Origin: an uncultured Woeseiaceae bacterium
Lineage (GTDB): Bacteria; Pseudomonadota; Gammaproteobacteria; Steroidobacterales; Woeseiaceae
Assembly: GCA_945787845.1 (NCBI GenBank)
Contig: CALZJH010000004.1
Location: 186,001-250,000 of the forward strand
DNA length: 64,000 nt
Direction: 5' to 3'
Part shown: positions 8,682-25,340 of the stretch, piece by piece
How positions within the stretch are numbered: the first letter of the stretch is position 1
Layout of the letters: each line of letters starts with the position of its first letter
Made by a program: the position numbers and the translations under genes
The notes under the pieces: generated by a model
Told to the model about the DNA's origin: nothing
What the model saw: only the letters and a program-made list of their open reading frames with translations
The model's database searches: none

Positions 8682-10181
8682 TTAGTCCTGCTCGGACTCC
8701 GGCGAGGTCGCCGACTTGCGGGTCTCGATGCGTGCAATGAGCCCAGCGGCTTCTTCGGTGAGGGGCGTCTCCTGGTGTGACCACGCGATGACCGAGTTGG
8801 CGTGGGCGATTGCCTCGTCGTCCCGATCCGCTTTGGCGTACGCCTCGGCGAGCAGCATTCTGAGCTGCAGGTCTGATGGCAACATTGCCGCGGCCTCTTC
8901 AAGCATGCTGATTGCACGTTGATAGTCGCGTCCCTGGATCAGGTAGGCCTGGCCCGCCGCAACGAAGACTTCGGGTATCGAATTGTCGAGGCGATACGCT
9001 TTCACGACACCGGCTTTTGCATGCTCTGCGTATTCATCTCGAAGCGACGCGTCCTCAGTCGTGTTGGCGCGTCCGATCCAGTAGTTGGCGACGTTGAGAT
9101 GCACGTACGGATCCAGCGCATCGAGGGCTACCGCATCCGCCAGTTTTTTCTCAGCCAGGGCGAAGTCGCTATTTGCGATTGCGACCATCGCCGAGTCTGA
9201 CATCGCGCGGGGGCGAGTCCGTGGATTGCTCAATGCGGTGGTGAAGTAGGCCGCCGCCAGGTCGAACTTCTCCACGCGCACGGCGAGCTGGCCGAGCCCG
9301 AGCGCGGCCTCGGATCTGGAGATCGTCCTGATCGAGGGTGAGAAATCTGGCAGTATTTCAGCAGTCGGGACGCTCAGGTATTTGCAGCAACGCTTCACGA
9401 GGTAAGGATTGAGCCAGCCATACAGGCCATCCGCATCGAGGCCGAACGCCGTTTCAAAGCTCTCAACGTCATCGATGCCCGAGGCGACGAGCGACGCATA
9501 CTGCGTAATCCCATCAGCGAGCGACACCGGCGCATTCTCCGCGTGTTGCAGGAAGTGAACCAGCAACCAGGCTTCCGAGTAGAAGAGCGCGCCGCCATAA
9601 GCGTCCGAGCCGACGAAGTATTCCCCGTCCAGCCAGTCGATGTTGGTCAGGATATAGCCCGCGGCATCCGAGCCCTTGCCGATATGAAAATTGTCGCCAC
9701 GAATTTCAGAGTGGGCAAAATACTCGGCGATACCCTCGTCGTACCAGCGTGGATAGTTGAATCCGCCATGCGTACGGACCAGGTAATGCACGTACTCGTG
9801 CATGATGATCGAGGTTTCTTCCATGCCGACCGTTTCGCGAATCAGGATCGTGTTGTTGCGAATGCCGGGCATGAACATGCCGACGAAGTCCTGGTCGATG
9901 CCAAGCGTACGAAAGTCCTTTGCGCGTACCGCGTAAATGGTCGTGGGCACGGCAGCGCTGGTGCGCTCAATGTTCGTCAGGCTCGGCACGACGGAGCGCA
10001 TCAATTCGAGATGGTGGGCCAGATCGACAGTCTTGCGCTTGCTCAGGATGCTGCGGATCCGAAAATTCGTAGAGACGACTTCGATCCACGTCGCCTCGTC
10101 GAGTGACTTGGCGGAAACTTCAGGCGCTGCGGCGAAGGTCAGCAGCAGTGCCGTCAGCGCCGCAAGTAGTCCCGCTCTCAT
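8682..10181 (-). CDS. Secreted HExxH metallopeptidase-like protein with TPR repeats
   Basis: This is a 499-aa exported protein with a signal peptide at residues 1-24. A gluzincin-type zinc site is visible: HEYVH near residue 127 and, about 23 residues later, the Glu of DEGIAEYFA. This matches the DUF1570/peptidase-MA-like families. The C-terminal half consists of tetratricopeptide-like helices. Its ATG overlaps the stop codon of the upstream Cys-rich peptide (ATGA), making it the last gene of the Rnf operon. A role in maturation or quality control of the complex is possible but unproven; it may simply have been captured by the operon. Confidence 0.8.
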   Translation of the reverse strand: MRAGLLAALTALLLTFAAAPEVSAKSLDEATWIEVVSTNFRIRSILSKRKTVDLAHHLELMRSVVPSLTNIERTSAAVPTTIYAVRAKDFRTLGIDQDFVGMFMPGIRNNTILIRETVGMEETSIIMHEYVHYLVRTHGGFNYPRWYDEGIAEYFAHSEIRGDNFHIGKGSDAAGYILTNIDWLDGEYFVGSDAYGGALFYSEAWLLVHFLQHAENAPVSLADGITQYASLVASGIDDVESFETAFGLDADGLYGWLNPYLVKRCCKYLSVPTAEILPDFSPSIRTISRSEAALGLGQLAVRVEKFDLAAAYFTTALSNPRTRPRAMSDSAMVAIANSDFALAEKKLADAVALDALDPYVHLNVANYWIGRANTTEDASLRDEYAEHAKAGVVKAYRLDNSIPEVFVAAGQAYLIQGRDYQRAISMLEEAAAMLPSDLQLRMLLAEAYAKADRDDEAIAHANSVIAWSHQETPLTEEAAGLIARIETRKSATSPESEQD

Positions 10182-10378
10182 GTGGCAGGACGCGACCGGG
10201 AACAGGAGTTGCCGGAGTTACATTCGTCCCTGCGGCCACAGCCACCGCACTTTAGCGACCGCCGCTCGGCGTCCGGATCGTGCCTGAACAACCAGGTCTG
10301 GAATATGGCCCAGAACGCGCACAGTGCGACGATGGCCAGCAGTGGCAGAGCATACGTTGTCAGCATTTCGGCAAACAC
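10178..10378 (-). CDS. Cys-rich single-span membrane peptide, NqrM-like
   Basis: This 66-aa product has a GTG start, one N-terminal transmembrane helix (about residues 8-28) and a cytoplasmic tail with five cysteines: CGGCGRRDEC then CNSGNSC. It begins three bases after the rnfA stop and its own stop overlaps the next ATG. The layout recalls NqrM (DUF539), a small Cys-bearing membrane protein needed to insert iron into the NqrD/NqrE pair, the paralogs of RnfA/RnfE. Sequence similarity is weak, and FeoB-associated Cys-rich peptides look similar, so the family call is tentative. Delivery of iron to the RnfA-RnfE centre is inference. Confidence 0.6.
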   Translation of the reverse strand: MFAEMLTTYALPLLAIVALCAFWAIFQTWLFRHDPDAERRSLKCGGCGRRDECNSGNSCSRSRPAT

Positions 10379-10381
10379 TCC

Positions 10382-10960
10382 TCAGGTCGAGCTGAACAGC
10401 CCGGCAAATCCCATGAATGCCATCGACAGTATACCGGCGATGATGAGGTTCATGGCGGTGCCCTGGATCAACTTCGGAATACTGGACAATTCCGCCTCCT
10501 CGCGCAGACCCGCGAGCAGGACCAGCGCCAGCGTGAAGCCGATGCCGGCGCCGAGGGCGTAGACGATGCCTTCCCAGAAGCCGTAACCGCGATTGGTCGC
10601 AAAGATCGCAAGACCGAGAATCGCACAGTTCGTGGTGATCAATGGCAGGAAAATACCCATCGCACGAAACAGTGCAGGACTCAGTTTCTTGATCAGCATC
10701 TCGATGAACTGCACGGTACTGGCGATAACGACAATGAAGCAAATGAGCCGCAGGTAGGGAGCGTGAATCAGGACGTACGTATTGAGAACCCAGGCACAAA
10801 CGGCCGTCACCAGCATCACGAAGGTTGTAGCGAGGCCCAGGCGGGCCGAGGTTTCCAGCGAATTGGATACGCCGAGGAACGGACATAGCCCAAGAAAATA
10901 GGTCAGGACAAAATTATTGACCAGCAGTGCGCTGATGAAGATCCAGGGCAGGTTATCCAT
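10382..10960 (-). CDS. rnfA: Ion-translocating oxidoreductase subunit RnfA
   Basis: This is a 192-aa integral membrane subunit with six predicted helices. Diagnostic stretches are FISALLVNNFVLTYFLGLCP, LETSARLGLATTFVM and TTNCAILGLAIFA. RnfA and RnfE are inverted paralogs that together hold an intramembrane iron centre, and the conserved cysteines in GLCPF and NCAIL are present. RnfA takes part in electron passage across the membrane coupled to Na+ or H+ transport. Its ATG overlaps the rnfE stop by one base (TAATG). Confidence 0.96.
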   Translation of the reverse strand: MDNLPWIFISALLVNNFVLTYFLGLCPFLGVSNSLETSARLGLATTFVMLVTAVCAWVLNTYVLIHAPYLRLICFIVVIASTVQFIEMLIKKLSPALFRAMGIFLPLITTNCAILGLAIFATNRGYGFWEGIVYALGAGIGFTLALVLLAGLREEAELSSIPKLIQGTAMNLIIAGILSMAFMGFAGLFSST

Positions 10961-11604
10961 TAGTGGCCACTCCTCTCAGCTTCCGCAACGTCTTCCAGGA
11001 ACTCGTCCTTTTTGAACTTGAACCAGTTGAAGAACAGCAGGATCACGCCGAGCGTCAGGAAGCCACCCGGCGGCAGGATCATGATGACCCACGGTTCGAA
11101 GTTCGCACCGAAAAGTTTGACACCGAACAGCGCGCCGTCGCCCAGGATCTCGCGCACGGCGCCGAGAGAGAAAAGCGCCAGCAGGAAGCCCGTGGCCATG
11201 CCGACGGCGTCCATCACGGCGAGACGCGTCGGGTAGCGTGATGCGAATGCTTCCTGCCGACCCAGAATGAGGCAGTTCGCAACGATGAGCGGAATAAAGG
11301 CGCCGAGTTCTTTGTGCACTTTAGGCACGAGCGCAAGGAGCGTGTAGTCGGCAATCGTCACAAAGGTGGCAATGATGATGATAAAGCAGGAGATACGAAC
11401 CTGTTTGGGAATCCAGTTTCGGAAGCTCGATACCAGGAAACTCGAGCCGACCAGGACAAAAAACGTCGCCATTCCCATGGCAACTGCGTTGACTGCTGAA
11501 TTGGTCACCGCCAGCATCGGGCACATTCCGAGCACTTGCGCAAACACCGGGTTGTCGCGCCAGACGCCCTTGATGAACTCTTCGTAGGACTGGTTATTCT
11601 TCAC
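10960..11604 (-). CDS. rnfE: Ion-translocating oxidoreductase subunit RnfE
   Basis: The product is 214 aa and a six-helix membrane protein homologous to RnfA and NqrD. Key stretches are FAQVLGMCPMLAVTNSAVN and LIVANCLILGRQEAFA, each carrying the conserved cysteine for the shared iron centre. The C-terminus has a charged cytoplasmic tail. The GTG start overlaps the rnfG stop (GTGA), which indicates translational coupling. Confidence 0.96.
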   Translation of the reverse strand: MKNNQSYEEFIKGVWRDNPVFAQVLGMCPMLAVTNSAVNAVAMGMATFFVLVGSSFLVSSFRNWIPKQVRISCFIIIIATFVTIADYTLLALVPKVHKELGAFIPLIVANCLILGRQEAFASRYPTRLAVMDAVGMATGFLLALFSLGAVREILGDGALFGVKLFGANFEPWVIMILPPGGFLTLGVILLFFNWFKFKKDEFLEDVAEAERSGH

Positions 11605-12284
11605 TGTCCCCCCTCGGCGCTGGTTGGTTCTGACGCTTTGATCGACGGTTCGGATCCCGGGGCAGGCAGTTTGCCGGACCAGGCGGTATGGGTCTCGTTG
11701 ATGATCCGAACGATGGCTTTCGAGGAAATGGTCGCACCGGTTATCGCGTCAATTTCATTGGCATTGCTGCTGGTGCCTTTCTTCACGGCGACAATTTCAG
11801 GATCGATGGACAGGGCGCTGAATCCGCCGACGAACTCGGCGTCCTTATAGATTTTGTCCCCCAGACCCGGCGTCTCCCGGCTCTCGAGAACTTCCATGCC
11901 GACGACCAGTTTTTGTGCCGGCTGGTAGCCGTACAAAATGGCGATCGTGTCCTGGAAGCCGGGCCCCGCCGCCGGCACCGCATAACCCACGAATTCGCGA
12001 CTGTCGTCGTAGCCTCCGTAGACAACGGGCTCGTCCTTTTTTGCTTCCTCCACGACGACCAACTCGCCGTCCCGGTACACGAGTGCCTGCATCTGGCTGA
12101 CGCCGGGAAGAACCTTGAATACGGCTTCACGCAACTCCCGTGCCTTGTTTGCAGTAATCGTGGGCAGCGTCGACTCATAAATGCCGATTATCGCGATCCC
12201 TGAGATCAACCCGGCGATCGCCAGCGTCAGCACGAGACGCAGCGAACTGGGTGTCACCGTTTCCCTGTTTGCTCCGGCCGTCAT
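11601..12284 (-). CDS. rnfG: Ion-translocating oxidoreductase subunit RnfG
   Basis: This 227-aa protein has one N-terminal transmembrane helix (LVLTLAIAGLISGIAIIGIY) and a periplasmic FMN-binding domain. The flavinylation motif is visible as DAITGATISSKAIV, where the Thr of GAT carries covalent FMN. ETPGLGDKI is the other family signature. The motif implies an ApbE flavin transferase elsewhere in the genome, since none is in this window. Start ATG overlaps the rnfD stop (ATGA). Confidence 0.96.
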   Translation of the reverse strand: MTAGANRETVTPSSLRLVLTLAIAGLISGIAIIGIYESTLPTITANKARELREAVFKVLPGVSQMQALVYRDGELVVVEEAKKDEPVVYGGYDDSREFVGYAVPAAGPGFQDTIAILYGYQPAQKLVVGMEVLESRETPGLGDKIYKDAEFVGGFSALSIDPEIVAVKKGTSSNANEIDAITGATISSKAIVRIINETHTAWSGKLPAPGSEPSIKASEPTSAEGGQ

Positions 12285-13300
12285 TGGCTATCGCCTCCAC
12301 GACCGAACACCCGGGGCTGCGTGTAACGATCGATGAGCGGCGTAGCAGCATTCATGAGCAGGATGGCGTACATCACGCCTTCCGGCAGCCCGCCGAAAAC
12401 GCGGATCAACATCACGAGGACGCCAGTGCCGATGCCAAAGATCCAGGCCCCTTTCGGCGTGACCGGGGAGGTCACGGGATCGGTGGCCATGTAGATAGCC
12501 CCGAGCAGCAGGCCTCCGGAGAAGACCGAGAACAGCGGGGATGGGAAACGATCCGCATCGAAGAGCCCGAGGATGGCGGAGAAAACCACAACGGTCACAA
12601 GGATACTTACAGGGATGCGCCAATCGAGGTCTCGCCTCAACCACAGGAAGACACCGCCGAGCAGCAGCAGCAGCCCACTGGTCTCGCCGAGCGAGCCGGT
12701 GGTCTTGCCGAACATCAGGTTGGTAAGCGGCGTGACCTCTTGTTCGAATTTCATGAGTCCCAGCGGCGTGGCGGAGCTCATCGCGTCTATCTGCACCTGC
12801 ATGAATGGCAAAGCGAGGTTCCCAGGATAGACCTGCAGGAACCCACCGTCGGTCACAGCGGGCACCCAGGTCGTCATGGCTATCGGAAACGTGGCGAGTA
12901 GAAATGCACGGCCCAGCAGCGCGGGGTTGAACAGGTTCTGTCCCAGTCCGCCCCATATCACTTTGCCCAGCGCAATGCCGATGAACCCGCCCAGAAATGC
13001 CATCCAGAGCGGCAGGCCCGGCGGCAGGGTAAGCCCGAGCAGGAGTCCGGTCAGTACGCAGCTGGCGTCGCGCAGTGATTCCCCGCGAGCCTGCCGGTCG
13101 GCGAACAGCCACTCCGCTGCCACCGCACCGCCAATGCAGGACGCGAGTATGAGAACGGCACTGAGACCGAAAAACCACATCGACGCGAGGGTCGCCGGCG
13201 CGAGTGCGAGCAGCACGTCGCGCATCGCCTTTGGCGTCGTCATACCCTGGCGCAACAACGGCGCGTGGAAAAGCAGCAGGTCCGGATCGCGTTGCTTCAC
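12281..13300 (-). CDS. rnfD: Ion-translocating oxidoreductase subunit RnfD
   Basis: From GTG 13300 this is 339 aa, and that start overlaps the rnfC stop (GTGA). A longer frame upstream lies entirely within rnfC and is not needed. The protein is polytopic. Family features are GGLGQNLFNPALLGRAFL, the FMN-attachment region DAMSSATPLGL (Thr as acceptor) and MATDPVTSPVTPKG. With RnfG it forms the membrane flavin relay of the pump. Confidence 0.95.
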   Translation of the reverse strand: MKQRDPDLLLFHAPLLRQGMTTPKAMRDVLLALAPATLASMWFFGLSAVLILASCIGGAVAAEWLFADRQARGESLRDASCVLTGLLLGLTLPPGLPLWMAFLGGFIGIALGKVIWGGLGQNLFNPALLGRAFLLATFPIAMTTWVPAVTDGGFLQVYPGNLALPFMQVQIDAMSSATPLGLMKFEQEVTPLTNLMFGKTTGSLGETSGLLLLLGGVFLWLRRDLDWRIPVSILVTVVVFSAILGLFDADRFPSPLFSVFSGGLLLGAIYMATDPVTSPVTPKGAWIFGIGTGVLVMLIRVFGGLPEGVMYAILLMNAATPLIDRYTQPRVFGRGGDSQ

Positions 13301-14637
13301 GCGTCGGGCTCCTTGCGATGAGTCAGGTCGTCCTTCGCCGTGCGAATCAGCTGCACGATCGGAATGTTGGACGGGCAGGCAAAAGTGCAGCAGCCGCACT
13401 CAACGCAGTCGAAGACGTTGTACGCTTTCATCTCGTCGAACATGCGCGCCTTCGACAGTCGTGCAAGCCGGGACGGATTGAGGAAGTAGGGGCAGGCCTC
13501 CAGGCAGCGGCCGCAGCTGATGCACGGATACTCCTTGCGCCGCGCAGTCTCTGCCTCGGTAAAGACCAGTACGCCCGAGCATCCCTTGAGGATCGGAACA
13601 TCGAGGCTGGCTATAGGTCGGCCCATCATCGGCCCGCCCATGATCATCTCGCGCGTGCCCGGCTTGAGGCCGCCACAAAACTTCACCACATCACGCACCG
13701 GTGTCCCGAGCGGCACGATCAGGTTGGCGGGGTAGGTTACGCCAGGACCCGCGACCGTCACGACCCGCTCGATCAAGGGTATGCCGCGCAGAAAATAATC
13801 CGCTATTGCGACAATCGTGCCGACGTTGTTGACGTTAACGCCCACGTCGCGCGGCAATTGACCGGCAGGTACCTCCACGTTGAAGACGCTCTTGATCATC
13901 ATCTTCTCGGCGCCCTGCGGATACTTGACCTTCAAGGGCACGACGCGCACCGGATCTCCCGGCGCTATGTGTTGCTGAATGATCTTGATGGCGTCAGGCT
14001 TGTTCGCCTCGATGCCGATGACGGTCTCCTCGGCGCCGAGTTTCTGCCGCATGATCTCTGCGCCCTCAAGCAGTGCCTCAGGACGCTCGAGCATGAGTCG
14101 ATGGTCGGTTGTCAGGTACGGCTCACACTCGGCCCCGTTGATCAGCAGATGCCTGATTGTGACGCCGTCGGGCACGGACAGCTTCACGTGGGCCGGAAAC
14201 GCCGCACCGCCCATGCCGACGATGCCTGCCATCTGCACGGCCTTGATGAACTCCTCGAGTGACAAGGCCTCCCAGTCGATGCCGTCGCCGGCGTCCACCT
14301 GCTGGGTCGCAAAGGCGTCGGCCTCAATCGCTATCGCCGGTGCAAAACGTCCGTCGACTCCCCGGAAATCGCCGATCTCGCGGACCGTCCCGGTCACGGG
14401 GCTGTGCAGCCCTGTGGAGACAAAGCCACCCGGCTCAGCGATTAACTGCCCGCGTGTTACGCGTTCGCCGGCAGTAACAATCGCCTGTGCCGGAACGCCG
14501 ATGTGCTGCCCGAGCGGCATGACATAGTCCTTGCCGAAGGGCACGCGCTGTATTGGCAGGTCGGCGGTTTGTTCCTTGAAATGAGCTGGATGCACTCCGT
14601 GCTCAAAATTGCGGCGTAGTCGACGAAATGCGCGCAT
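13297..14637 (-). CDS. rnfC: Ion-translocating oxidoreductase subunit RnfC
   Basis: I start this at ATG 14637, four bases after the upstream stop, giving 446 aa; the upstream extension of the open frame lies inside the preceding gene. RnfC is the peripheral NADH-binding subunit. It shows the N-terminal RnfC/barrel-sandwich region (LHSPVTGTVREIG), the NADH/FMN-binding SLBB-type core (GMGGAAFPAHVKL, INGAECEPYLTTDHRLM) and two [4Fe-4S] motifs near the C-terminus (CISCGRCLEACPY and CVECGCCTFACPS). It lacks the long Ala/Lys-rich tail of E. coli RsxC. Confidence 0.95.
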   Translation of the reverse strand: MRAFRRLRRNFEHGVHPAHFKEQTADLPIQRVPFGKDYVMPLGQHIGVPAQAIVTAGERVTRGQLIAEPGGFVSTGLHSPVTGTVREIGDFRGVDGRFAPAIAIEADAFATQQVDAGDGIDWEALSLEEFIKAVQMAGIVGMGGAAFPAHVKLSVPDGVTIRHLLINGAECEPYLTTDHRLMLERPEALLEGAEIMRQKLGAEETVIGIEANKPDAIKIIQQHIAPGDPVRVVPLKVKYPQGAEKMMIKSVFNVEVPAGQLPRDVGVNVNNVGTIVAIADYFLRGIPLIERVVTVAGPGVTYPANLIVPLGTPVRDVVKFCGGLKPGTREMIMGGPMMGRPIASLDVPILKGCSGVLVFTEAETARRKEYPCISCGRCLEACPYFLNPSRLARLSKARMFDEMKAYNVFDCVECGCCTFACPSNIPIVQLIRTAKDDLTHRKEPDA

Positions 14638-14641: not shown

Positions 14642-17600
14642 TCAGTCTCGCTTCTTCGACGCCAGCTGCAACAGGCGACTGCGAATCGTGCTCGCGATCT
14701 CAGCCTGCGTCTTTTCCCGGATATCACGGATCTCGGCTTCCGACGCCTTCTTTTGTGCAGCCAGTGCCGCTTCGTGTTCGGAAGCAAGGTCCGCACGAAT
14801 ATCCTGTTCGAGCCGCTCCGTAAACGGCGTGACGATTCCGGCGAGCTCCTGCAGCGTTTGCCAGTTCGCGAGGCACTCTGCGCTTGCTTCGGCCAGCCGC
14901 CGGGACACTGCATGGCGATGTTCGTCGTCGCCATCGAGCGTTGCGACAAACGGCGTCTTTCCCTTGCGGCTCGCGACGTTGAGGCGCAGCCATTCCGGCA
15001 GCGGGAGCGGGCTGGCGGCATCGTCCGCGAGGGTGGTGAAACCAGATGCAAAGCGGGTCTGCCCAAGCGCCCAGTCAGCCAGTGTCTGGCTCGGCTGACT
15101 GTCTTCGGGGTTGCCGTCCAGGGAAATGCGTGACCCGAATACGCCTTCCGCGGCGGGGTCGTAGCGGAATAGTGGCAGCGCGCGGCAATCGACCGCTCGC
15201 TGCGCCTGTGCAAGCGACTCGCGCGGCGCGAATCCGTGGCGTCGTGGGCTGGGTGCGTATGCCTGGACGAGGGCGGGGCCTGCGTGGCGCAGTGCATGCA
15301 ACAGGCTTTCGGCGAAGTGTGCGGTATCGGCAATAGAGGTCTGCGCGACAAACGCCTTGCGCTGCGCCAGCGCCAGCAGGCCGAGAATTGCTCTCGGGTT
15401 ATTGGTCTGTTCCTCGAGCAGCCCGAAGTCCAACTCGCTCAGTACCAGGACCTTCACGGGCAGGCCGGAGTTCAGCAGCCAGATCAACTGGCTCAGACCC
15501 TGGCCCGCAAGCATTTCGTCGCTGCCGACCAGGATGAGCGGCGGACAAAGCGCGATCTCTTCGGGGTCCAGATCCTGCCAACACAGGCTTGCGAGTGCTT
15601 CGCGTTTCCAGTCGGCCCCGTCGGGCGGGTCGACTTCGAGGCGCGCGCGCCGCAACAAGCGAATCAGTTCTGTTGTTTCCTGCAGGTGACCCTCGATCAG
15701 GCCGGCGGCCAACTGCGCGGCATCGCCGCTCATATCGATGAGCACTGGCGCCTGGAAGGGGTTGTGCGGAAATGCGCCGGCCCAGGCAGCTGTGCTGCCG
15801 CCCGCAATCGCGAGGCCATAGCGTGCTCGACCCAGCCCGTGTTCTCCCACAATGAGCCGGTGGTGAGCTGTGGCAATGCTGTTCGAGAGGTCGATCAGCC
15901 TGAGAAGGAGGTCGGTATCGACGGAATGATTGCCGCCGCCACTGCCGACGCTCTCCGCCAGGTCCTGCAGGTCGACACGCGGGCTCGATGTGTTTCTCAG
16001 TTTTTCGCTAACGGCATCGAGATCATCGACCGCGAGTGTGCTCGAGAGCGTCTCGTTGATGAGCGACGCGACGGACTCGCCGGCCTCCGACAGCGTCTTC
16101 GCGAATCGTTGCACGATGGGCTGTTGTTGAAACTCGGTCGCCGACAATGCCATCCGGACAGCGATCTTCTCGCCGGAACCAGCTTCAGCCGGATCACCAC
16201 CGGGCAACGCGAACTGGCAGTATCGCGACAACAGGATCGCGGCCATTGCGCCGACGTCGGGGTCTTCAGCGACACGTTCCAGTGTTGCTGAAGCCGTGTC
16301 GGGTGTCGACGTGAAGACGGCCCACAGGTCTCTTGCGTGGTTCAGCACAGCCGCATCCTGCGCGGCACCGCGCAGAGCTTCCGGTTCGCAATGGCTCACG
16401 CACAGGCCACAGGACTTGCAGGCATCTGGGTTGACGACCACTGACAGCAGTTCGGCACTGTCTTTCTTGCGCGCTTCAGCATCGTGGAAGAAGGGCTTGG
16501 TGACCGCGACCGGCAGCGCGCCATAGGCCGCGCGGATTTCGCCGATACCTTCTGCAATCGCCTGCTTGCGCTCATCCGGCAAGGGCATTTTGTCCTTGAG
16601 CCATGTGTAGGCCTCGTCGAGCATTTCGCCAAACGTCGGCGCAGGATGTTCGGCTTTCCGGTTGCTCGAGATCATGCGCGCCGCAAGTTTGGCTGCTACC
16701 TGGCGTACGGCATCGGCACCGGTGCGGTCGATGCCGGCTTCGATCAGGGCTGCAGGACTGGACGCAACGACGCCGATAGCGCTGTCGGGACAGTGTGTCC
16801 AGCATTTGCCGCAGCCAGTGCACAGCGACGGATCGAATACCGGCAATCGAGTGCGGGCCCCGCTCGTATCGTGGAAAGTAGAACTCAAAGGCGGCATGGT
16901 GCCCGTTGCAAGGAACGGGTCTGCCGTCAGGCGGTCAGTCTTTCCGTCGCGATAGAGTATGCCGGTCTGGTCCCAGAAACGGGGCAGGCTGGCAAAGTGA
17001 TCGTCGTCCCGCGCGAGGTGGCGCACGGCGGCAGGTACGGCTCCCTCCCAGGAACTAGCGGCGGGATCTGTGCCGGTTGATTCGCCGTCGCGCTCGACGA
17101 CGCCCTCAAGACCGGCCTGAAACGATGCAAGCATCGCGTCGCGGCGATCGGCGGGAACGGTCTCCAGCAGGCCACGGCGCGCGGCGATAATCCGGCGCAG
17201 TTTGTGATCGACCAATCCTGCGGACTGCAGCACGCCAAACAGCCCACCGAGTAAGGCCTCCTGCGCGTTTGTGTCGTCGGGATCGACTGGCACATGAAAG
17301 GTCTTTGTGCCGTCAGTGAGCAGCACTTCGCTGCGCGCACTTAGCAACGTCGCGTCGGCGACGACTTCATCGCCAGGGTCCTGCAGCGAAGCATCGCCGT
17401 GCGTGAGCCAGTCAAGCTGCGTGTCGCGCCAGCGTTCCCACGTAAGCGCAGGGCGGCTGCGAATGCGTCCCCCATCGAGTTGTTGCAGTATCGCGCCCGC
17501 CGCACCGAGCAGGCCTTCATTGTCGTCGCCGGTAGTCCGCTGTATCGCAATGCTCAGCGTGTTTTCTTTGCGCAGCCGGCTGGTGCCGCGCGCAGCGCGG

Positions 17601-18907
17601 ATACCGAGTTGGGCGGTGTCAGGATAGGCGCGCCGCAACGCGTCGAGTAAGACCTCGCGCTTGGGTTCTTCGGCCGATGGGTCATCGAAAGACAGGCCCA
17701 GGTAAACAGGCGTCGCCGGCGGCGGATCCGTGCGTGCACAAAGTTCGACAAGATCGGCAACGCGCAGCGGTAATCCACCAACGCCAAAGACGATGGGCGA
17801 ACAGGCAGGTCGCGTCCCGGCTTGCGCTTGCCCGAGGCTGGCGCGAACCTCGCGGCATAGGGGTGGTTCGCCGGACAAGGGCGAAGCCATGCGTTCAAGC
17901 ACGAAGACGTGTTTGCATTGCTCGAGCGCTGCACCGATCGCAGCGGACGGGAACGGACGCAGTACATGAATGCCAAGGACTCCGACTTTTATCTTGTGCC
18001 GCTCGCGAACGAAGTCTGCGGCCACTCGCGCTGTCTCGAGCGCGGAGCCTTGCGCCATGATCACAATGCTCGCGTCGTCCACGCGGTAGTTGGAGACTGC
18101 CTCGTGTTGGCGGCCCGTCTTGCCCGCAAATGCCGCGAAAGACGCTTGCAGCGACTCGTCGACAAACGCGTCAAAATAGGGGCCGCGAGCGGCCGCTCCG
18201 AGCGCGAAGCTCCCTGGTTCAAACAAGGCACCTGTGAGCGCCGGCTCGTCGAGATCGTGCCAGGCGGGCACGCGCCGCCGCATTGCGCCGAACAGGAGCT
18301 TCTGCGCGGACGTCGGCGACTCGATTTGATCACGCGGGGAACCGAGGAAACCACTGACCTGCGCGGGCGATAGCAGGCGCGTGTCCTGCGGGGCGAGGGC
18401 GGTTTGCTCACTGTCCATGACAACCATCCCAGGTACCAGTGACGCCTCGGTCACGCGCCTGGCAATGTAGGTGAAGTCGATGGCCTCCTGCACATTGGCC
18501 GCAAACAACATGAAGAAACCGGAATCCGCACTGAGATGGACGCTTTCATGCCCACTGCCCAATGCTGCGCCATGTGCCGCGAGCGCGCGCGTGTTGAGAT
18601 GCAAGACCAGGGGCGCGTGTTTGCCTGCCGCGGACGTCAGCAGATCCTGGCTTGCCGCGATTTCCGTTCCGGACAGGAATGCGGCCGCGCGCCGGCCGGC
18701 CAGCGCCATGCCGGTGGCCGCGGCAACGCGACCCCGGGGACCTTCGGCGTTGTGCACCGCGTGGCTGGTAATGGCGGCTTCAGACAACGAGACCGCAGTG
18801 TTACCGTCGAGCACCGTGTCCAGACCTTCTTCGCGGATGTCTGATCCGGCAGGTGCCCCAAAGACCTTGCGGTACCAGCGGATGGCAATGCTACGCATAC
18901 CGGGCAT
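14642..18907 (-). CDS. PFOR-like 4Fe-4S protein lacking TPP and catalytic residues
   Basis: From ATG 18907, which overlaps the rnfB stop as TGATG, the product is 1421 aa. It follows the layout of pyruvate:ferredoxin oxidoreductase throughout. There is a pyrimidine-type domain (DGNTAV at residue 34, TRALAAHG near 106), a transketolase-C-like domain (265-390), a gamma-like domain (405-610), two ferredoxin clusters (Cys 696/699/702/706 and 830/833/836/840) and a C-terminal domain (VQAYAPSPRRHGF, LPLFRYDP). The YPITP motif, the catalytic Glu, the proximal-cluster cysteines, the GDG motif (here GSDE at 1128) and the SNTGGQ metal loop are all missing. It should not bind thiamine pyrophosphate. A Trp-x-TLQELAG motif (1349-1357) and a coiled coil end the protein. 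An electron-transfer or scaffold role for Rnf is inference. Confidence 0.85.
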   Translation of the reverse strand: MPGMRSIAIRWYRKVFGAPAGSDIREEGLDTVLDGNTAVSLSEAAITSHAVHNAEGPRGRVAAATGMALAGRRAAAFLSGTEIAASQDLLTSAAGKHAPLVLHLNTRALAAHGAALGSGHESVHLSADSGFFMLFAANVQEAIDFTYIARRVTEASLVPGMVVMDSEQTALAPQDTRLLSPAQVSGFLGSPRDQIESPTSAQKLLFGAMRRRVPAWHDLDEPALTGALFEPGSFALGAAARGPYFDAFVDESLQASFAAFAGKTGRQHEAVSNYRVDDASIVIMAQGSALETARVAADFVRERHKIKVGVLGIHVLRPFPSAAIGAALEQCKHVFVLERMASPLSGEPPLCREVRASLGQAQAGTRPACSPIVFGVGGLPLRVADLVELCARTDPPPATPVYLGLSFDDPSAEEPKREVLLDALRRAYPDTAQLGIRAARGTSRLRKENTLSIAIQRTTGDDNEGLLGAAGAILQQLDGGRIRSRPALTWERWRDTQLDWLTHGDASLQDPGDEVVADATLLSARSEVLLTDGTKTFHVPVDPDDTNAQEALLGGLFGVLQSAGLVDHKLRRIIAARRGLLETVPADRRDAMLASFQAGLEGVVERDGESTGTDPAASSWEGAVPAAVRHLARDDDHFASLPRFWDQTGILYRDGKTDRLTADPFLATGTMPPLSSTFHDTSGARTRLPVFDPSLCTGCGKCWTHCPDSAIGVVASSPAALIEAGIDRTGADAVRQVAAKLAARMISSNRKAEHPAPTFGEMLDEAYTWLKDKMPLPDERKQAIAEGIGEIRAAYGALPVAVTKPFFHDAEARKKDSAELLSVVVNPDACKSCGLCVSHCEPEALRGAAQDAAVLNHARDLWAVFTSTPDTASATLERVAEDPDVGAMAAILLSRYCQFALPGGDPAEAGSGEKIAVRMALSATEFQQQPIVQRFAKTLSEAGESVASLINETLSSTLAVDDLDAVSEKLRNTSSPRVDLQDLAESVGSGGGNHSVDTDLLLRLIDLSNSIATAHHRLIVGEHGLGRARYGLAIAGGSTAAWAGAFPHNPFQAPVLIDMSGDAAQLAAGLIEGHLQETTELIRLLRRARLEVDPPDGADWKREALASLCWQDLDPEEIALCPPLILVGSDEMLAGQGLSQLIWLLNSGLPVKVLVLSELDFGLLEEQTNNPRAILGLLALAQRKAFVAQTSIADTAHFAESLLHALRHAGPALVQAYAPSPRRHGFAPRESLAQAQRAVDCRALPLFRYDPAAEGVFGSRISLDGNPEDSQPSQTLADWALGQTRFASGFTTLADDAASPLPLPEWLRLNVASRKGKTPFVATLDGDDEHRHAVSRRLAEASAECLANWQTLQELAGIVTPFTERLEQDIRADLASEHEAALAAQKKASEAEIRDIREKTQAEIASTIRSRLLQLASKKRD

Positions 18908-19749
18908 CAGACGCCCCCCGCTTTTCTGGATTCCTGGTCCTGGAACTGCTCGCCCTCGAGCCACACGATCGAGCGCGTAGCGCATCGAAACACGGCCTCA
19001 GGGGCGGCCGGACCGCCTGCCGAATAATCGATCACGGGGAGGTTGTTTTCCATGCGTATTAGTCCGGGCGCGGCGTCCGCGACACACTTTCCGCAAGCGT
19101 CGCATGCGACTGAACAGAGCTGTGTTGCCGCCTCGCCCGCCAGCGGAATGTTGCATTGCACGAACAGGTTCTGGCTGAGCGGCACGAGTTCAAACAAGTC
19201 CCTGGGGCAGGCAGCAACGCAGTCCGGGCAGGCACGGCACTTCTCGGTGTCTACCTGAGGGAGACCGTTTTTATTCATATGAATCGCGTCGAAAGTGCAG
19301 GCGACTTCACAATCGCCCAGGCCAAGGCAGCCCCAGGAGCAGCCTTTCCCGCCGCCCGACACCATGGCGGCTGCCCGGCAGCCTTCAAAACCCTGGTATT
19401 CAGCAATCTGGTGCGCCTGCAAGCCACCGCCATTGCAGCGCAGCCGGGATACCAGCTTCTCCTGGCTGCCGGCATCCACTTCGAGAAACTCGGCAATTTG
19501 CTCGATGTTCTCTTTGGTACTGACGGTGCACTGGCTGGGGTCGACGGTCCCGGCCACGAGTTTTTCCGCAAACGGCAGGCACCCGGGTTGTCCGCATGCG
19601 CCGCAGTTGGTGCCCGGGAGTAATTCGTTGGTTACCTCAATGCGTGGGTCCTCGTCCACCTTCAGGAAGCGCTGCGCGATAGCGAGAATCGTTCCGAAGA
19701 ACAATCCGATCCCAACCATGATGGCCGGCGCTACGAGCAGGCTGTTCAT
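18907..19749 (-). CDS. rnfB: Ion-translocating oxidoreductase subunit RnfB, long form
   Basis: RnfB, 280 aa, is the ferredoxin-interacting subunit. It has an N-terminal membrane helix, then an Fe-S motif (NCGACGQPGCLPFAE), then a double-cluster ferredoxin domain (CSWGCLGLGDCEVAC and CRACPDCVAACP). A further Cys-rich segment follows (CNIPLAG, CSVACDACGKC, FRCATRSI). Gammaproteobacterial RnfB is usually about 190 aa, so the extra C-terminal Fe-S region resembles the longer Bacteroides/anaerobe type. Its ATG overlaps the upstream stop by one base (TGATG). Confidence 0.95.
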   Translation of the reverse strand: MNSLLVAPAIMVGIGLFFGTILAIAQRFLKVDEDPRIEVTNELLPGTNCGACGQPGCLPFAEKLVAGTVDPSQCTVSTKENIEQIAEFLEVDAGSQEKLVSRLRCNGGGLQAHQIAEYQGFEGCRAAAMVSGGGKGCSWGCLGLGDCEVACTFDAIHMNKNGLPQVDTEKCRACPDCVAACPRDLFELVPLSQNLFVQCNIPLAGEAATQLCSVACDACGKCVADAAPGLIRMENNLPVIDYSAGGPAAPEAVFRCATRSIVWLEGEQFQDQESRKAGGV

Positions 19750-22208
19750 CAGTTAAACGGCGCGGCGCGGGCTACCAGCTCGTCCAGCCCGGGCTCGTTG
19801 GGGTTCAGCGGTTTACCCGGGTGGATGCACTTGGCGGGGCAGATCTCGGCTGCCGCCACGAGGTCCGCATAGGTTCCCGCGTTCACATCCTTGATGATCG
19901 CCTGCTTGTCGCTGTTGTACGCGAACATCATTTTGTTCACGCCCATACAGTCGTCGCAGGTTGTGCACATCGACGTATCGAGCCAGGGCTCGTCAAAGCT
20001 GAGCTCTTCTTCCGGCTCCTCTTCGGGCTCGGGCTCTGGTTCGGGACTGACGTCGGAGGCGGTCTCGGTTTCGGTGGTCGGCAGGGGCGTCGGCATCGTG
20101 GCGAGCTGGCCGCCGTCGGCTACCACGCTGGAGAGATCGGCACCCATCAGGACGTCGACGAGCTGGCCCATGGCCTCACCAGCCGCTTCGCTACGCGCGC
20201 TCTCCAGCTCCTCCTCGTGTGCCTTCTTCAGTTGCTCCCGTTCGGCTTCGATCGCCGCCTGTTGTTCCTCGATAATTCGGTCGACAGCGGCTTCGACGTA
20301 GAAATTTTGCACGCCGGCAAGTTCCTGCAGGGTGCGCCAGTAGTTCAAGCGGTCGCGGCAGGCGAAGACGAGCGTACGGGATACGACCAGCCGCACGAGG
20401 ACACCCTTGTCATCGATACCCCAGACAAACGGCACCAGCCGATCAACGACCACCTCGCCGGCGCCGAGGAACTCGTCAACGGTTACCAGGTTCGGTGCCT
20501 CGAAGCCGGCGGGTACCACGCGGAAATGTTCGTGCAGCTCCGGCATCAGGAGTGCGTAGTCCGCAAACGTGAACGCAAGGTCCATCTCGGTCACTTCGCC
20601 GTCTGCGCTGCGAAATTCGAGCTTCTCAACGGGCCAGTCGCCGTCCGCCTGAGGGTTTCCGGTAAAGCTGACTCGCTCTGCGGCATGGTCGCCACGGTCC
20701 GGATTCACGAGGAGGTAGGGATGGGCGCGACCCTCGAGCGCAGCACTTGCAACGAACCAGGCATCGAGCAGTGGCTTCTCCGTCCTGCTCTGGGTACCGC
20801 GATTAATCAGGTGCAGGCCCGTCCGATTGCTGTCGAGGGCGCAAAGGAAGCCAGACAGCAGATCCTGGTGGCGCGCCGCCGACGACTGCGCGACAACAAC
20901 GTGGCGGTGACCGACACCGAAGTAGGCCAATTCAAAACGATAGGTATCGAAGGGCCCCTCACCGGCGCGCGCTGCCGGATTGTCATAGGCCCGAACCCAG
21001 GTCAATACCTGGACCGGGAGACGTGACCCCAGCAAATGTGAAAACGACGACAAGCCGTCGCCCGCGAGATAGTCGGCCGATGCCAGCGCTACGACTCGCG
21101 TTACAAGCTGCATTTCCTCGTCAGAGAAGGCCTGCCAGTCGAAACTGGCAAACCAGGAATCGTGTATCGCGGGATCGTAATTTCCGTCGATCTCCAGCGC
21201 TGCGATGCGCGCTGCAGCGAACAGCTGAGCGAATTGCGCAGCGTCCTCTGCGAACACCTCGGCCGCGGTTGTGCACGGAGTGTTGCTGGTGACGACCTCA
21301 AGTGCAGGCAAGTCGGTCAGTGCCGGGTCGTCGAGCTTGCCGACAAACCGGACCAGCACAGGATCATCTTGCCACGATTGCAATGTCTGCAAGGCTTGCT
21401 CAATGCGCTCGCGCCGTTCTGCGATCATGTCGACCGAACCGTGCGCGCGCTGTCCAAGCATTCCGGACAAGGCGCTCGTGTCGAAGTATTGCGACGCAGC
21501 ACCGGCTTCAGTCTTGCTCTTGCGGCCTTCTTCGCTTGTTGCTGCCTTGGCTTTCTCGACCTCCAGCAAGGAACGCAAGCCGTGGATGTGCTTGCTGACC
21601 TGCTGTCGAAACGCCTCGCGCCGATCGTCGTGCCGGTGACGAATGGCATGCACCATCAGGTGCAGCGACGTATGCGGTCCGTAGCCGAGGAACTGCCCAC
21701 CGGGCGCGATGGCGTCTGCGAGACGCGCCAGGTCGGCGGCCAGGACTTCGCGACTCTCGGGTTCCAGATCCAGCTGCTCCTGCATCGCCGTCGCAGCCGA
21801 CGCAAAAAAACCGGGTGCCTCGACGGGGTCAGGGTCTGCCAGTTTCTGCCGGATGTAGCGCTCGATCCAGGGAAGGTTATCTTTGAGTATCCGGGCGTTG
21901 TCGTCGCCGAGTGCAAACTCGTCAATCGCATCGAGCAGGTGTTCGCCCACCGGTTTGGCCAGCACCGCCTGCTCCGTGCCGTCGGGTGGTACGAGATACA
22001 GTGGGTACTGGTAACGAATGACTGACGCATCCCGGTAGGGATTGAGAAGGGCGGGCAATATGCCGCCGCTGGGCCGGGAGGTACTTGCGGTCGCTGCGGG
22101 CTCGCCGTAATGGAAACGGCGGAGTACGTCGAGCACATTGGTGCCGTCATCACCCACAATTTCGCCCTTGTCGGCTTCGTTACGTTTATTTTCCGTTACG
22201 GAATTCAT
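19749..22208 (-). CDS. PFOR-derived ferredoxin-tailed protein of the Rnf operon
   Basis: The 819-aa product has no family I can name with certainty. Its middle and C-terminal part parallels the neighbouring 1421-aa PFOR-like protein: LAGDGLSSFSHLLGSRLPVQ (382-401) matches LAGQGLSQLIWLLNSGLPVK there, and both carry a W-x-TLQELAG motif (624-632 here) followed by a coiled coil (640-685). A Glu/Pro-rich linker (705-740) then leads to a ferredoxin-like domain with Cys 748, 751, 754 and 790, plus Cys 794. The first ~300 residues are helical with no recognised motif. It probably relays electrons or holds the complex together. Confidence 0.75.
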   Translation of the reverse strand: MNSVTENKRNEADKGEIVGDDGTNVLDVLRRFHYGEPAATASTSRPSGGILPALLNPYRDASVIRYQYPLYLVPPDGTEQAVLAKPVGEHLLDAIDEFALGDDNARILKDNLPWIERYIRQKLADPDPVEAPGFFASAATAMQEQLDLEPESREVLAADLARLADAIAPGGQFLGYGPHTSLHLMVHAIRHRHDDRREAFRQQVSKHIHGLRSLLEVEKAKAATSEEGRKSKTEAGAASQYFDTSALSGMLGQRAHGSVDMIAERRERIEQALQTLQSWQDDPVLVRFVGKLDDPALTDLPALEVVTSNTPCTTAAEVFAEDAAQFAQLFAAARIAALEIDGNYDPAIHDSWFASFDWQAFSDEEMQLVTRVVALASADYLAGDGLSSFSHLLGSRLPVQVLTWVRAYDNPAARAGEGPFDTYRFELAYFGVGHRHVVVAQSSAARHQDLLSGFLCALDSNRTGLHLINRGTQSRTEKPLLDAWFVASAALEGRAHPYLLVNPDRGDHAAERVSFTGNPQADGDWPVEKLEFRSADGEVTEMDLAFTFADYALLMPELHEHFRVVPAGFEAPNLVTVDEFLGAGEVVVDRLVPFVWGIDDKGVLVRLVVSRTLVFACRDRLNYWRTLQELAGVQNFYVEAAVDRIIEEQQAAIEAEREQLKKAHEEELESARSEAAGEAMGQLVDVLMGADLSSVVADGGQLATMPTPLPTTETETASDVSPEPEPEPEEEPEEELSFDEPWLDTSMCTTCDDCMGVNKMMFAYNSDKQAIIKDVNAGTYADLVAAAEICPAKCIHPGKPLNPNEPGLDELVARAAPFN

Positions 22209-22236: not shown

Positions 22237-23190
22237 CTACAAGGCGAAATGATCCAGTGCTTCGTTCATGCCTGCCAACCTGTCCTCGATCGTCATATCG
22301 AGGCCGGTCGCAGTCATCTTGTCATACTGCGGTGCGTCGGGGTTGTGGTACAGGATGCCCAATGGCAAGACGCTGTCGTCCTCCGCCAACGCACGCGCTG
22401 CGGCGAGATCGGAGGGGTCGTGCTCGGCATTGTTCGGGAACAAACGCTTGACCATGTCGTCAACCTGGACGCCTTTTTCATGCGTCAGGAGCCGCATGCG
22501 CGCGGGTTCGTCCTGAAGGGCCTTGCCGATCGACTCCACGTAGACAGGGCAACGTTGAATGATGCGTACAAAGCTCGTTCCCTTGTGCTCGTGTGCTTTC
22601 TTGATGACCTCATGACGGAGCGGGGCATTCCAGTCGACGATCTGGGCGACAAAAGAAATATTCGTGATACCAAGGGTAACGGACAGCGGGTTGAGCGGCG
22701 GAAGCAGGGCGCCTGACGGGTGGGTGTTGGTCGGCACGTCGAGCGGCGTGGTTGGCGACGTCTGTTTCTTGGTCAGCCCGTAAATGCCGTTGTCGAATAC
22801 CAGGAGCGTGATGTCCATGTTGTAACGCATGGCATGGATCCAGTGGGCGGCACCAATCGAGAAGCAATCGCCGTCGCCGGTCGCGACCCAGACGTCCAGA
22901 TCAGGGCGCCGCGACTTGATACCGCAGGCGACAGGCAGTGCACGCCCGTGCAAGCCATGGAACCCGTACGTGCTCATGTAGTGCGGCAGGCGGCTGGAGC
23001 AGCCGATACCGGATACCGCCACCGTCTTCTCGGGTTTGATCTGCGAGTCGCGGCAAACGCGATGGACTGCAGCAAGGATGCCATGGTCGCCGCAACCTGT
23101 GCACCAGCGCGGCACCGCGCCGGTGTAGTCTTCCAGTGTGAAGTATCGATCCTTGACCTCGAGAGACCAATCACCTTTTAAGCCGAACAT
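22237..23190 (-). CDS. korB: 2-oxoacid:ferredoxin oxidoreductase beta subunit (KorB type)
   Basis: At 317 aa this matches the thiamine-pyrophosphate-binding beta subunit. The cluster cysteines are Cys30 and Cys33 (CTGCGDHG), Cys64 (GIGCSS) and Cys214 (QRCPVY). The TPP/Mg motif is intact: GDGD at 105-108 through DNGIYGL at 133-139, then KKQTSPTTP. This makes it catalytically competent, in contrast to the PFOR-like protein downstream. The substrate is a 2-oxoacid; 2-oxoglutarate is the most likely from the overall type, but pyruvate is not excluded. Confidence 0.92.
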   Translation of the reverse strand: MFGLKGDWSLEVKDRYFTLEDYTGAVPRWCTGCGDHGILAAVHRVCRDSQIKPEKTVAVSGIGCSSRLPHYMSTYGFHGLHGRALPVACGIKSRRPDLDVWVATGDGDCFSIGAAHWIHAMRYNMDITLLVFDNGIYGLTKKQTSPTTPLDVPTNTHPSGALLPPLNPLSVTLGITNISFVAQIVDWNAPLRHEVIKKAHEHKGTSFVRIIQRCPVYVESIGKALQDEPARMRLLTHEKGVQVDDMVKRLFPNNAEHDPSDLAAARALAEDDSVLPLGILYHNPDAPQYDKMTATGLDMTIEDRLAGMNEALDHFAL

Positions 23191-25340
23191 GCTTCTGCTC
23201 CTTCGATCTCTTCAAGTCGTGATTCGATGACGTTGTGGATAGTGCCGGGTTGCAGCGGGTGGCCCGGAACCTTGGACCAGCAGTCGATATCCATCAGCGT
23301 ATGCGCGCGCAGTACGAGCGCCAGCTGCGAGTAGCGACGGTTCTCTTCAGTAACGAGCGGTGAACCGGGTTCATCGCTGTAGTTGATCTCGATCGTCATC
23401 ACCTTCTTGAACCTCGAGAAAATTTCTTTCAGGCCGGGCTCCATCGGCGACAGGAAGCGGAGATGCACGGAGGACACCTTCAGACCCTGGGCCCTCGCGC
23501 GATCGACTGCTTCCTCGATGGCACCCAGCGTAGAGCCCCATCCGACAATGAGCAGGTCGCCTTCGGGATCACCGTGAACCTCGGGAGGCTTCATGGTGGC
23601 AAACATGGCGGCCAGTTTGCGGCTACGCATGTCCATGCCTTCCTGGTTGGATGCTGTGTCATAAGCGATCTTGCTATTGCGATTGTGTGCGAGCCCCGTG
23701 AGGATGTACTCGCCGCCGCGCATGCCCGGGATAGGCCGTTCCGACAGGCCGGTTTTTTCGTCCCAGTCAAAGGGCGCGACGTCCTCGTCCCAGTCAGACT
23801 GGTCCAGCGGCGGCGCGAACCACTCTTCGGTAACTTCCGGCCGCTCTATGGGCTGCACACCCGTGCCCAAGTTGGCATCGGTCAGCATGATCACCGGGGT
23901 ACGGAAGGACTCGGCCAGTCTGCGAGCCATGACCACGAAATGGAAACACTCTGAAATGGTCGCCGCCGCCATGACGATCTTGGGTGAGTCGCCTGGCGCA
24001 CCGTACAGGGTCGACAGCAGGTCGCCCTGTTCGACCTTCGTAGGCAGGCCGGTTGACGGACCGCCGCGTTGCACATCGATGATAACGAGCGGTACCTCGG
24101 CCATGACGGCAAGACCGATCATCTCGGTCTTCAGCGCCATGCCCGGCCCGGAGGTAATCGTGCACGCGGTTTTGCCCGCATACGACGCCCCGATCGCGAA
24201 TCCGATCGCAGCGATCTCGTCTTCCGCCTGGTGGACGAAGCCGCCGGTCAGGTGGAAATCTTCAGCGAGATAATGTGATGCGGATGTTGCCGGCGTAATG
24301 GGATACATCGCCACCATTTCGATGCCGGCAGCCATAACGCCCAGCCCGGCCGCGGTGTTGCCGTTCATGACGACCGCCGATTCGAGGCGATCCTCTTCGG
24401 AGGCCGGGATCTCGAACGAAAAGCCAATATGCTCGCGGGCGAATGCATAGCCGGCGTCGAACAGGTCGTGGTTAATATTGATGACCTTTTCGCTCTTCTT
24501 CTTGAAGATCTTGGCAATCTCGGCTTTCGCGATGTCGGTATCGCGGTGGTAAATGCTGCAGATCATGCCGAGGACAAACATATTCTTGCCCTTGCGGGGA
24601 TCGGGTACGAGCTTGAGGCACTCTTGCTGGATGGGCAGTTCGATGACATTGAGTCCCTGCGCCTCGAAATCGGCCAGCGCCTCCTTGTACTGGTTGCGGA
24701 TTCGCTCATCAGGATCTTCCGCCCACATGTTCTCCAGCAGGACGACCGTGCCTTTCCTGTAAGCGCGGTTCGAGATGCGGGAGTAGAGCACCTGCTCGTT
24801 GAACGCGACTACCACATCGGCCTCATCGCCCATATTGGTCATGTAATTCGACCCCATGCGAACGCGAATGCCGCTGGCACCCTGGCGTTCCCGGGCCGGC
24901 GGTTGAATCTCGGCCGGAATGATCTCGACGGTCCAGACACCGTTGCCCATCTTGCCGCTGACCAGCCCCAGGATCTGGCCGCACTTCTGTGCGCCCTCGC
25001 CGGAGTCGCTGACAATTTCGACAATATGCTGATCCACCTGGCGAACACCGCGCTGGAGCTCCAGGGGCTCGTCCGACTCATCGACAGGGTGGATCACAGC
25101 TGCAGCCGTGCCGTTCGCCTGTGTCGCCCGGATCTCGTCAAACCTGGAGCGGAATTCTTCGATTGCCTCCCAGCGAGCTTCCCGCGCGGTTTCGACGTCG
25201 TCGGTGTGCAGTGAGCGCCGCAAGTCGTAGCCAAGCGCGCCTCGCAGCGGCCGCGGGACGGCGAGCTTCACCCACCAGGTCTTGTCGCGCTTGAACAAGT
25301 ACTTGGTGTCGCCCGAGATTCGTGTTGTTGACATGCTCAT
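23178..25340 (-). CDS. korA: 2-oxoacid:ferredoxin oxidoreductase gamma-alpha fusion with integrase-type N-terminal domain
   Basis: The product is 720 aa. Residues 104-300 form the gamma domain (GRxxxG-like GEGAQKCGQILG) and 320-720 the alpha domain. The alpha domain has intact YPITPATS (346-353) and the QAEDE motif (371-375) holding the catalytic Glu. Residues 14-72 are unusual: YLFKRDKTWWVKLAVPRPLR and LRRSLHTDDVETAREAR resemble the DUF6538/arm-type domain normally at the N-terminus of tyrosine recombinases. Two in-frame ATGs exist, at 25340 and 25334; GGAG eight bases before the second favours 25334. It is the first gene of the operon. Confidence 0.9.
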   Translation of the reverse strand: MSMSTTRISGDTKYLFKRDKTWWVKLAVPRPLRGALGYDLRRSLHTDDVETAREARWEAIEEFRSRFDEIRATQANGTAAAVIHPVDESDEPLELQRGVRQVDQHIVEIVSDSGEGAQKCGQILGLVSGKMGNGVWTVEIIPAEIQPPARERQGASGIRVRMGSNYMTNMGDEADVVVAFNEQVLYSRISNRAYRKGTVVLLENMWAEDPDERIRNQYKEALADFEAQGLNVIELPIQQECLKLVPDPRKGKNMFVLGMICSIYHRDTDIAKAEIAKIFKKKSEKVININHDLFDAGYAFAREHIGFSFEIPASEEDRLESAVVMNGNTAAGLGVMAAGIEMVAMYPITPATSASHYLAEDFHLTGGFVHQAEDEIAAIGFAIGASYAGKTACTITSGPGMALKTEMIGLAVMAEVPLVIIDVQRGGPSTGLPTKVEQGDLLSTLYGAPGDSPKIVMAAATISECFHFVVMARRLAESFRTPVIMLTDANLGTGVQPIERPEVTEEWFAPPLDQSDWDEDVAPFDWDEKTGLSERPIPGMRGGEYILTGLAHNRNSKIAYDTASNQEGMDMRSRKLAAMFATMKPPEVHGDPEGDLLIVGWGSTLGAIEEAVDRARAQGLKVSSVHLRFLSPMEPGLKEIFSRFKKVMTIEINYSDEPGSPLVTEENRRYSQLALVLRAHTLMDIDCWSKVPGHPLQPGTIHNVIESRLEEIEGAEACSA

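Follow-up and report, generated by a model that had tools for sequence, protein, structure and literature searches.

A PFOR without its active site as a possible iron-sulfur wire between KorAB and Rnf in a Woeseiaceae bacterium and other gammaproteobacteria

Introduction

In the Solemya velum symbiont, genes for a pyruvate:ferredoxin oxidoreductase (PFOR) lie between rnfB2 and rnfC2, as has been in print since 2014, and the authors propose pyruvate as the electron donor for one Rnf complex (excerpts of PMC4287430). Rnf itself is a ferredoxin:NAD+ oxidoreductase, according to the excerpted part of a review (PMC12174285). Here we describe a related arrangement in a window of 64,000 nucleotides (nt) from an uncultured marine Woeseiaceae bacterium (assembly GCA_945787845.1, contig CALZJH010000004.1, positions 186,001 to 250,000). 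In this window the genes of KorAB, a 2-oxoacid:acceptor oxidoreductase, of two large iron-sulfur (Fe-S) proteins of PFOR descent, p819 and p1421, and of all six Rnf subunits form one operon on the minus strand. As in the symbiont, a PFOR-related gene stands between rnfB and rnfC; the excerpts of the symbiont paper mention neither a KorAB version nor dead PFOR copies.

The original prediction, made from the DNA letters, knew of no described complex of such composition. This stands for the KorAB version, of which searches of open-licence papers, a set without most subscription papers, gave no account, but not for the placing of a PFOR between rnfB and rnfC, already printed for the symbiont (PMC4287430, in excerpt). 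Among further sources represented by excerpts, a Woeseiales transcriptome paper mentions Rnf in general terms (PMC7451513), and the Endoriftia papers name korAB with no indication of one operon (PMC9796809, PMC11636981, PMC7787665), one of them also naming a 'PFOR-like' gene and Rnf (PMC11636981). The arrangement does not appear in the excerpts on Thiomargarita (PMC4914600), Gallionellaceae (PMC10734462), Kentron (PMC6593406) and Aquifex (PMC10052474), nor in the excerpts from two papers on Rnf (PMC4014512, PMC12174285).

Results

Coordinates below are those of the window and refer to its minus strand; loci and genomes returned by the searches carry L and G numbers. The window genome measures 3.68 Mb in 33 contigs and is 99.79% complete.

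Sequence, tree and fold search agree that the two large Fe-S proteins are PFOR-derived, as had been predicted. p819 (819 amino acids (aa), 19749..22208) comprises a degenerate PFOR domain VI and a ferredoxin-like C-terminal domain, the 4Fe-4S domain Fer4_13 (aa 744-796, 19821..19979), which is its sole accepted Pfam domain. p1421 (1421 aa, 14642..18907), encoded between rnfB and rnfC, matches POR_N, PFOR_II and two Fer4 motifs in Pfam and can be aligned with the PFORs of Moorella thermoacetica (6cin) and Desulfovibrio africanus (1b0p) over stretches of domains I, II, V and VI. It differs from these enzymes in the loss of the proximal cluster and of the thiamine motifs. The predicted derivation of the pair and its order around rnfB were thus borne out; what has to be amended is that neither protein has the PFOR active site and that their kin is a catalytic PFOR-ferredoxin fusion, encoded with rnfB and rnfC in other operons and hereafter called PFORfd.

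The motif alignment held 14 PFORfd, 31 p1421, 36 p819 and two canonical PFORs (E. coli YdbK and the NifJ of the window genome). Frames of 600 aa or less and L062-L065 were excluded from the counts, L063 and L064 being treated as duplicates of L034 and L039, L065 as a fragment, and L062 being removed by the same filter. GDG and NTGG are found in 14/14 PFORfd rows and YPITP in all 13 rows covering it. In p1421, YPITP is found in 0/31 rows and GDG and NTGG in none of the 28 covering rows (L044, L050 and L100 are cut short), and p819 has none of the three motifs. The cysteines of the proximal cluster are likewise present in all 14 PFORfd but in none of the 31 p1421 rows (1 to 3 rows gapped, depending on the column). 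The motifs of the other two clusters are kept in p1421: the first 4Fe-4S motif, at Cys 722-732 in the numbering of a 1447-aa form (16790..16822), in 31/31 rows, and the second, at Cys 856-866 (16388..16420), in 30/31 (L100 is cut short here). The cysteines of the ferredoxin tail occur in 14/14 PFORfd, 0/31 p1421 and 34/36 p819 rows (L043 is cut and L102 has a split frame); p819 has this tail and none of the three PFOR clusters. By thiamine motifs, and by a set of three clusters that includes the proximal one, neither protein is a PFOR; common descent with PFOR is indicated by sequence, tree and fold-search E-values, the latter with low TM-scores. The p819-like protein of L106 (8137-11067) seems to have three ferredoxin-like repeats at its end, where the others have one.

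PFOR was the top fold match in the PDB for the AlphaFold2 models of both p819 (pLDDT 65.0; E 5e-05) and residues 228-1421 of p1421 (pLDDT 63.6; E 4e-20), and D. africanus ferredoxin I was also among the p819 matches (TM (target) 0.78, E 0.036). These folds support the PFOR kinship, not a detailed shape. In a tree built on the domain that all share, with 54 rows (20 of the 36 p819, 18 of the 31 p1421, all 14 PFORfd and the two canonical PFORs), p819 forms one clade (99/97), p1421 another (100/98), and the two are sisters (99/99) that stand beside PFORfd and far from canonical PFOR. The kinship of p819, p1421 and PFORfd is firm.

Two arrangements carry these proteins. Type K, as in the window, reads korA-korB-p819-rnfB-p1421-rnfCDGEA. 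Type P reads rnfB-PFORfd-rnfCDGEA, where PFORfd is a PFOR of about 1650 aa with a ferredoxin-like tail; its flanks were compared in 14 loci, a set that excludes 11 genomes of the class scan and 10 of the phylum scan with matches of about 1650 aa or shorter. rnfB precedes PFORfd in 12 of the 14 (in L109 it follows rnfA, and L060 is cut by the contig end). Type P operons are devoid of KorAB, L055 having only a KorB-like stretch (31%) near the locus edge. The PFORfd of L059 can be aligned with solved PFORs, and its tail with ferredoxin I. At 413 of 911 bits it stays below the cut-off of the PFOR equivalog model, which therefore does not fix its substrate.

The original prediction also held that KorAB keeps its catalytic motifs, and this is the case. 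KorA (720 aa, 23178..25340) is the gamma plus alpha subunit of a 2-oxoacid:acceptor oxidoreductase (TIGR03710, 509 bits against an NCBIfam cut-off of 482.75) and shows YPITPATS in 34/34 aligned rows. KorB (317 aa, 22237..23190), the thiamine-diphosphate subunit, passes the Pfam cut-offs of TPP_enzyme_C and PFO_beta_C and shows GDGD in 36/36 aligned rows; its conserved Cys 30, 33, 64 and 214 probably form a 4Fe-4S site. Subunit families and thiamine motifs thus place the pair among the 2-oxoacid:acceptor oxidoreductases. The best solved relative of KorA is the KorAB of Magnetococcus marinus (6n2n, a 2-oxoglutarate:ferredoxin oxidoreductase; E 7.6e-85). Unlike the latter, the KorA of the window is fused to an N-terminal DUF6538 domain (aa 14-71, 25128..25301), and the pair is encoded together with two PFOR-derived proteins and Rnf.

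DUF6538 is a domain known from recombinases. That the KorA N-terminus is a stray recombinase fragment is nevertheless disfavoured, because the domain is conserved at the protein level and recurs in L061 (8624-9697), joined there to an NfnA-like protein. It is conserved in 14 aligned loci, and the median ratio of nonsynonymous to synonymous differences (pN/pS) over 13 comparisons with the window is 0.30 for DUF6538, against 0.13 in the KorA core and 0.81 in the linker that follows the domain. In six loci (L045, L047, L048, L049, L052 and L053) the korA match starts only past DUF6538. In L105, an aldehyde:ferredoxin oxidoreductase gene (AFOR_N, AFOR_C; 3387-5705) lies directly upstream of korA. 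In L102 (G072:C1:2156500-2176400), from a single-contig genome, korA is spread over three frames and p819 over two, through decay or sequencing error.

All six subunits of the Rnf complex (RnfABCDGE) are encoded in the operon: rnfB (280 aa, a long cysteine-rich form; 18907..19749), rnfC (446 aa, with Complex1_51K, RnfC_N, SLBB and Fer4; 13297..14637), rnfD (320 aa, 12281..13243), rnfG (227 aa, with FMN_bind; 11601..12284), rnfE (214 aa, 10960..11604) and rnfA (192 aa, 10382..10960). The NCBIfam scores of rnfA (235.9 bits), rnfB (74.5), rnfC (519.5), rnfD (336.4) and rnfE (225) all exceed their cut-offs; rnfG, at 92.5 bits, is below its cut-off of 102, and its FMN_bind domain is above that of Pfam. 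The locus differs from the usual Rnf in its order, B-p1421-C-D-G-E-A, and in an RnfC separate from the second RnfC of the same genome. In a tree of 34 RnfC rows, the type K (97/90) and type P (99/95) clades stand apart from that second RnfC and from E. coli RsxC.

From 25340 down to 8682 the minus strand carries the twelve genes of the original prediction, with position and strand as claimed: korA, korB, p819, rnfB, p1421, rnfCDGEA, a 62-aa gene and p499. Stop-start overlaps had been announced for nearly all joins; seven of the eleven junctions do overlap, and four are gaps of at most 53 nt. By the coordinates, the overlaps are of 13 nt at korA/korB, 1 nt at p819/rnfB, rnfB/p1421 (if p1421 starts with the ATG at 18907; the ATG before it, at 18985, would lengthen the protein to 1447 aa) and rnfE/rnfA, and 4 nt at rnfD/rnfG, rnfG/rnfE and 62-aa gene/p499. 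The gaps are of 28 nt (korB/p819), 4 nt (p1421/rnfC), 53 nt (rnfC/rnfD) and 15 nt (rnfA/62-aa gene). A simple promoter scan returned one site where 3.8 were expected; upstream of korA it returned none.

The gene order recurs in many genomes rather than in one, and the stretch from korA to rnfA is a block common to other gammaproteobacteria. The pairs korA-korB and korB-p819 are neighbours in 36/36 loci; by a stricter distance test, korB lies upstream of p819 in 35 loci, with two contig starts and one miss (L054). p819 and rnfB are neighbours in 33 loci (three contig ends; exceptions L061 and L106), rnfB and p1421 in 31 (two contig ends), and p1421 and rnfC in 22, with four contig ends and five exceptions, namely L104 and four loci where sucCD intervenes. 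Because these adjacencies recur across loci, the grouping goes beyond chance.

A p819 scan of named genomes gave 23 loci: 8 from Woeseiaceae, 12 from Gammaproteobacteria and one each from Chromatiales, Pseudomonadales and Pseudomonadota. Fifteen of 40 related genomes, the window genome included, match p819 at E <= 0.001, some solely through the protein of about 1650 aa. When 369 genomes of the class were searched with the p819 alignment, 29 matched at E <= 1e-20: 13 have a separate p819-like gene, 11 a frame of about 1650-1720 aa and five shorter frames. In a sample of the phylum 11/398 genomes match, eight of them from one family outside the class (frames of 1681-1698 aa). Both kinds occur together in G205, G256, G388 and G023, and G381 has, besides a p819 gene, a 287-aa fragment of the other kind. 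G027 holds a copy close to the window's (L065, C70, RnfC 89%, on a 3.2-kb contig) and a divergent one (L054, C120), and is perhaps a mixed bin.

The 62-aa gene (10178..10366) encodes one hydrophobic stretch and KCGGCG...C; it has homologues in 14 other loci (two duplicate contigs uncounted) and reaches the cut-off of no Pfam or NCBIfam family. Its product is perhaps an NqrM-like Fe-S cluster maturation factor for Rnf. For p499 (499 aa, 8682..10181; TPR and a weak peptidase-like match in the Pfam domain search), the loci of relatives gave no match at E <= 1e-4; many of them stop shortly past rnfA, but three with at least 2.5 kb more (L062, L063 and L064) still lack one. Although counted among the twelve predicted genes, p499 thus seems to stand outside the conserved block and probably outside the system.

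Discussion

We favour, with a probability slightly above 0.6, the reading that this operon encodes a reversible ion-pumping 2-oxoglutarate:NAD+ oxidoreductase that works without free ferredoxin. The loss of the active site and the retention of clusters in p1421 and p819, next to an intact KorAB, suggest that a dead PFOR has been turned into an Fe-S wire, with KorAB doing the catalysis. The earlier idea that the two proteins may stand in for a soluble ferredoxin fits their nature, as PFOR-derived Fe-S proteins could serve in this way. From the observed gene content, order, conservation and motifs kept and lost, we infer the contacts of such an assembly, its electron path and the order of that path, its substrate and its direction. 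KorAB would interconvert 2-oxoglutarate plus CoA and succinyl-CoA plus CO2, a substrate suggested by its relatives. Electrons would pass between the Fe-S site of KorB and RnfB through wires that are part of the assembly, to which p1421 would contribute its medial and distal clusters and p819 its ferredoxin-like cluster. Both proteins are kin of a catalytic PFOR-ferredoxin fusion but have lost its active site and proximal cluster, and the catalysis would fall to KorAB. RnfBCDGEA is predicted to pump Na+ or H+ as it hands the electrons on to NAD+, and in reverse mode would draw them from NADH, spending the gradient.

KorAB, p819, p1421 and Rnf could instead be operon-mates that form no complex, share a soluble ferredoxin pool and are grouped just for co-regulation. 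Such a pool would suit both the description of Rnf as a ferredoxin:NAD+ oxidoreductase (excerpts of PMC12174285) and the occurrence of korAB and p819 without rnf in L061 and L106. We nevertheless consider it rather unlikely, given that p1421 retains two cluster motifs though it has no active site, that its gene stands between rnfB and rnfC, and that its PFOR kin bear their own ferredoxin-like domain.

The large parts of p1421 and p819 that match the PFOR family, yet are without catalytic motifs, might also belong to proteins whose main role, as scaffolds or assembly factors, is to attach KorAB to the membrane, with electrons going from KorB to RnfB directly. This seems improbable, as the cluster cysteines are kept in every covering row while other PFOR sites have decayed. 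We give very little credit to the idea that p1421 is a new catalyst working on another substrate with a remodelled active site: its altered thiamine region is indeed alike among close relatives (mostly GSDEMLAG-like), but domain I and domain VI have each lost their motifs, and the replacements differ between subclades.

To return to the 2-oxoglutarate:NAD+ oxidoreductase, its substrate pair is suggested by the neighbourhoods of related loci. In L097, L101, L102 and L103 p1421 is separated from rnfC by sucC and sucD (by Pfam for L097 and L101, by blastp for all four). A NuoF-like gene is found upstream of korA in ten loci (L047, L048, L052, L053, L096, L097, L101, L102, L103 and L104), eight of which also have a fumarate-reductase-like flavoprotein, not seen in L052 and L102; both upstream families were defined from L048. 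Loci with the DUF6538 fusion have no frd- or nuoF-like match upstream of korA. Together, the sucCD, fumarate-reductase-like and NuoF-like neighbours point to succinyl-CoA/2-oxoglutarate, and this pair fits the data. The E1 component of 2-oxoglutarate dehydrogenase is above its cut-off in six of ten selected type K genomes, among them that of the window. No E1 was found in G140, G257 and G357 (1.6-1.9 Mb, 95-99% complete), and G374 gave only a weak match. A search for ATP-citrate lyase gave no match in the window genome, nor in the control genomes. A reductive direction fits in G140 and G257 at least; in the window organism an oxidative, energy-saving direction seems as likely.

Several observations weigh against the favoured reading. 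KorB scores 232.1 bits with TIGR02177, below the NCBIfam cut-off of 261.9. The window operon is without suc or frd genes, and L045, L098, L099 and L105, for which upstream sequence is available, show no frd, nuoF or nfn match. The window genome also encodes 2-oxoglutarate dehydrogenase, as do G256 and G072, two of the four sucCD genomes, and it has five further POR_N places outside the operon (L127, L128, L129, L130 and L131). The single-chain models are of modest confidence and not good enough for docking, their overall TM to PFOR being only about 0.1 to 0.2. Approximately unbiased (AU) tests reject none of three other branching orders (p 0.28, 0.17 and 0.24), so that the order of events is not settled. 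Finally, p819 need not always serve Rnf, because L061 and L106 carry NfnAB-like genes, korAB and a p819-like gene with no rnfB adjoining. This arrangement suggests that p819 may be the KorAB-side adapter and p1421 the Rnf-side adapter. As to the POR_N places of the window genome, they include a NifJ beside a GltD-like gene, and also a 783-aa protein in which alpha and beta parts are fused.

For relatives like G140 and G257, which have fumarate-reductase-like and nuoF-like genes and sucCD, and in which no 2-oxoglutarate dehydrogenase was found, we tentatively propose, as a possibility short of an even chance, an ion-gradient-driven carboxylase. It would run on NADH and lead from fumarate through succinate and succinyl-CoA to 2-oxoglutarate. 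Inside one assembly, Rnf would raise the electrons, through the pseudo-PFOR wire, to the low potential required for carboxylation, and no free reduced ferredoxin would meet oxygen.

If the favoured reading is true, Rnf would gain a dedicated carbon partner, and the operon would encode a membrane energy converter with direct coupling between an ion gradient and a carbon step of the citric acid cycle. It would also be a clear example of a large metabolic enzyme that lost its active site and was put to new use as a wire. Some marine gammaproteobacteria in which no 2-oxoglutarate dehydrogenase was found would then have a testable route from NADH to 2-oxoglutarate.

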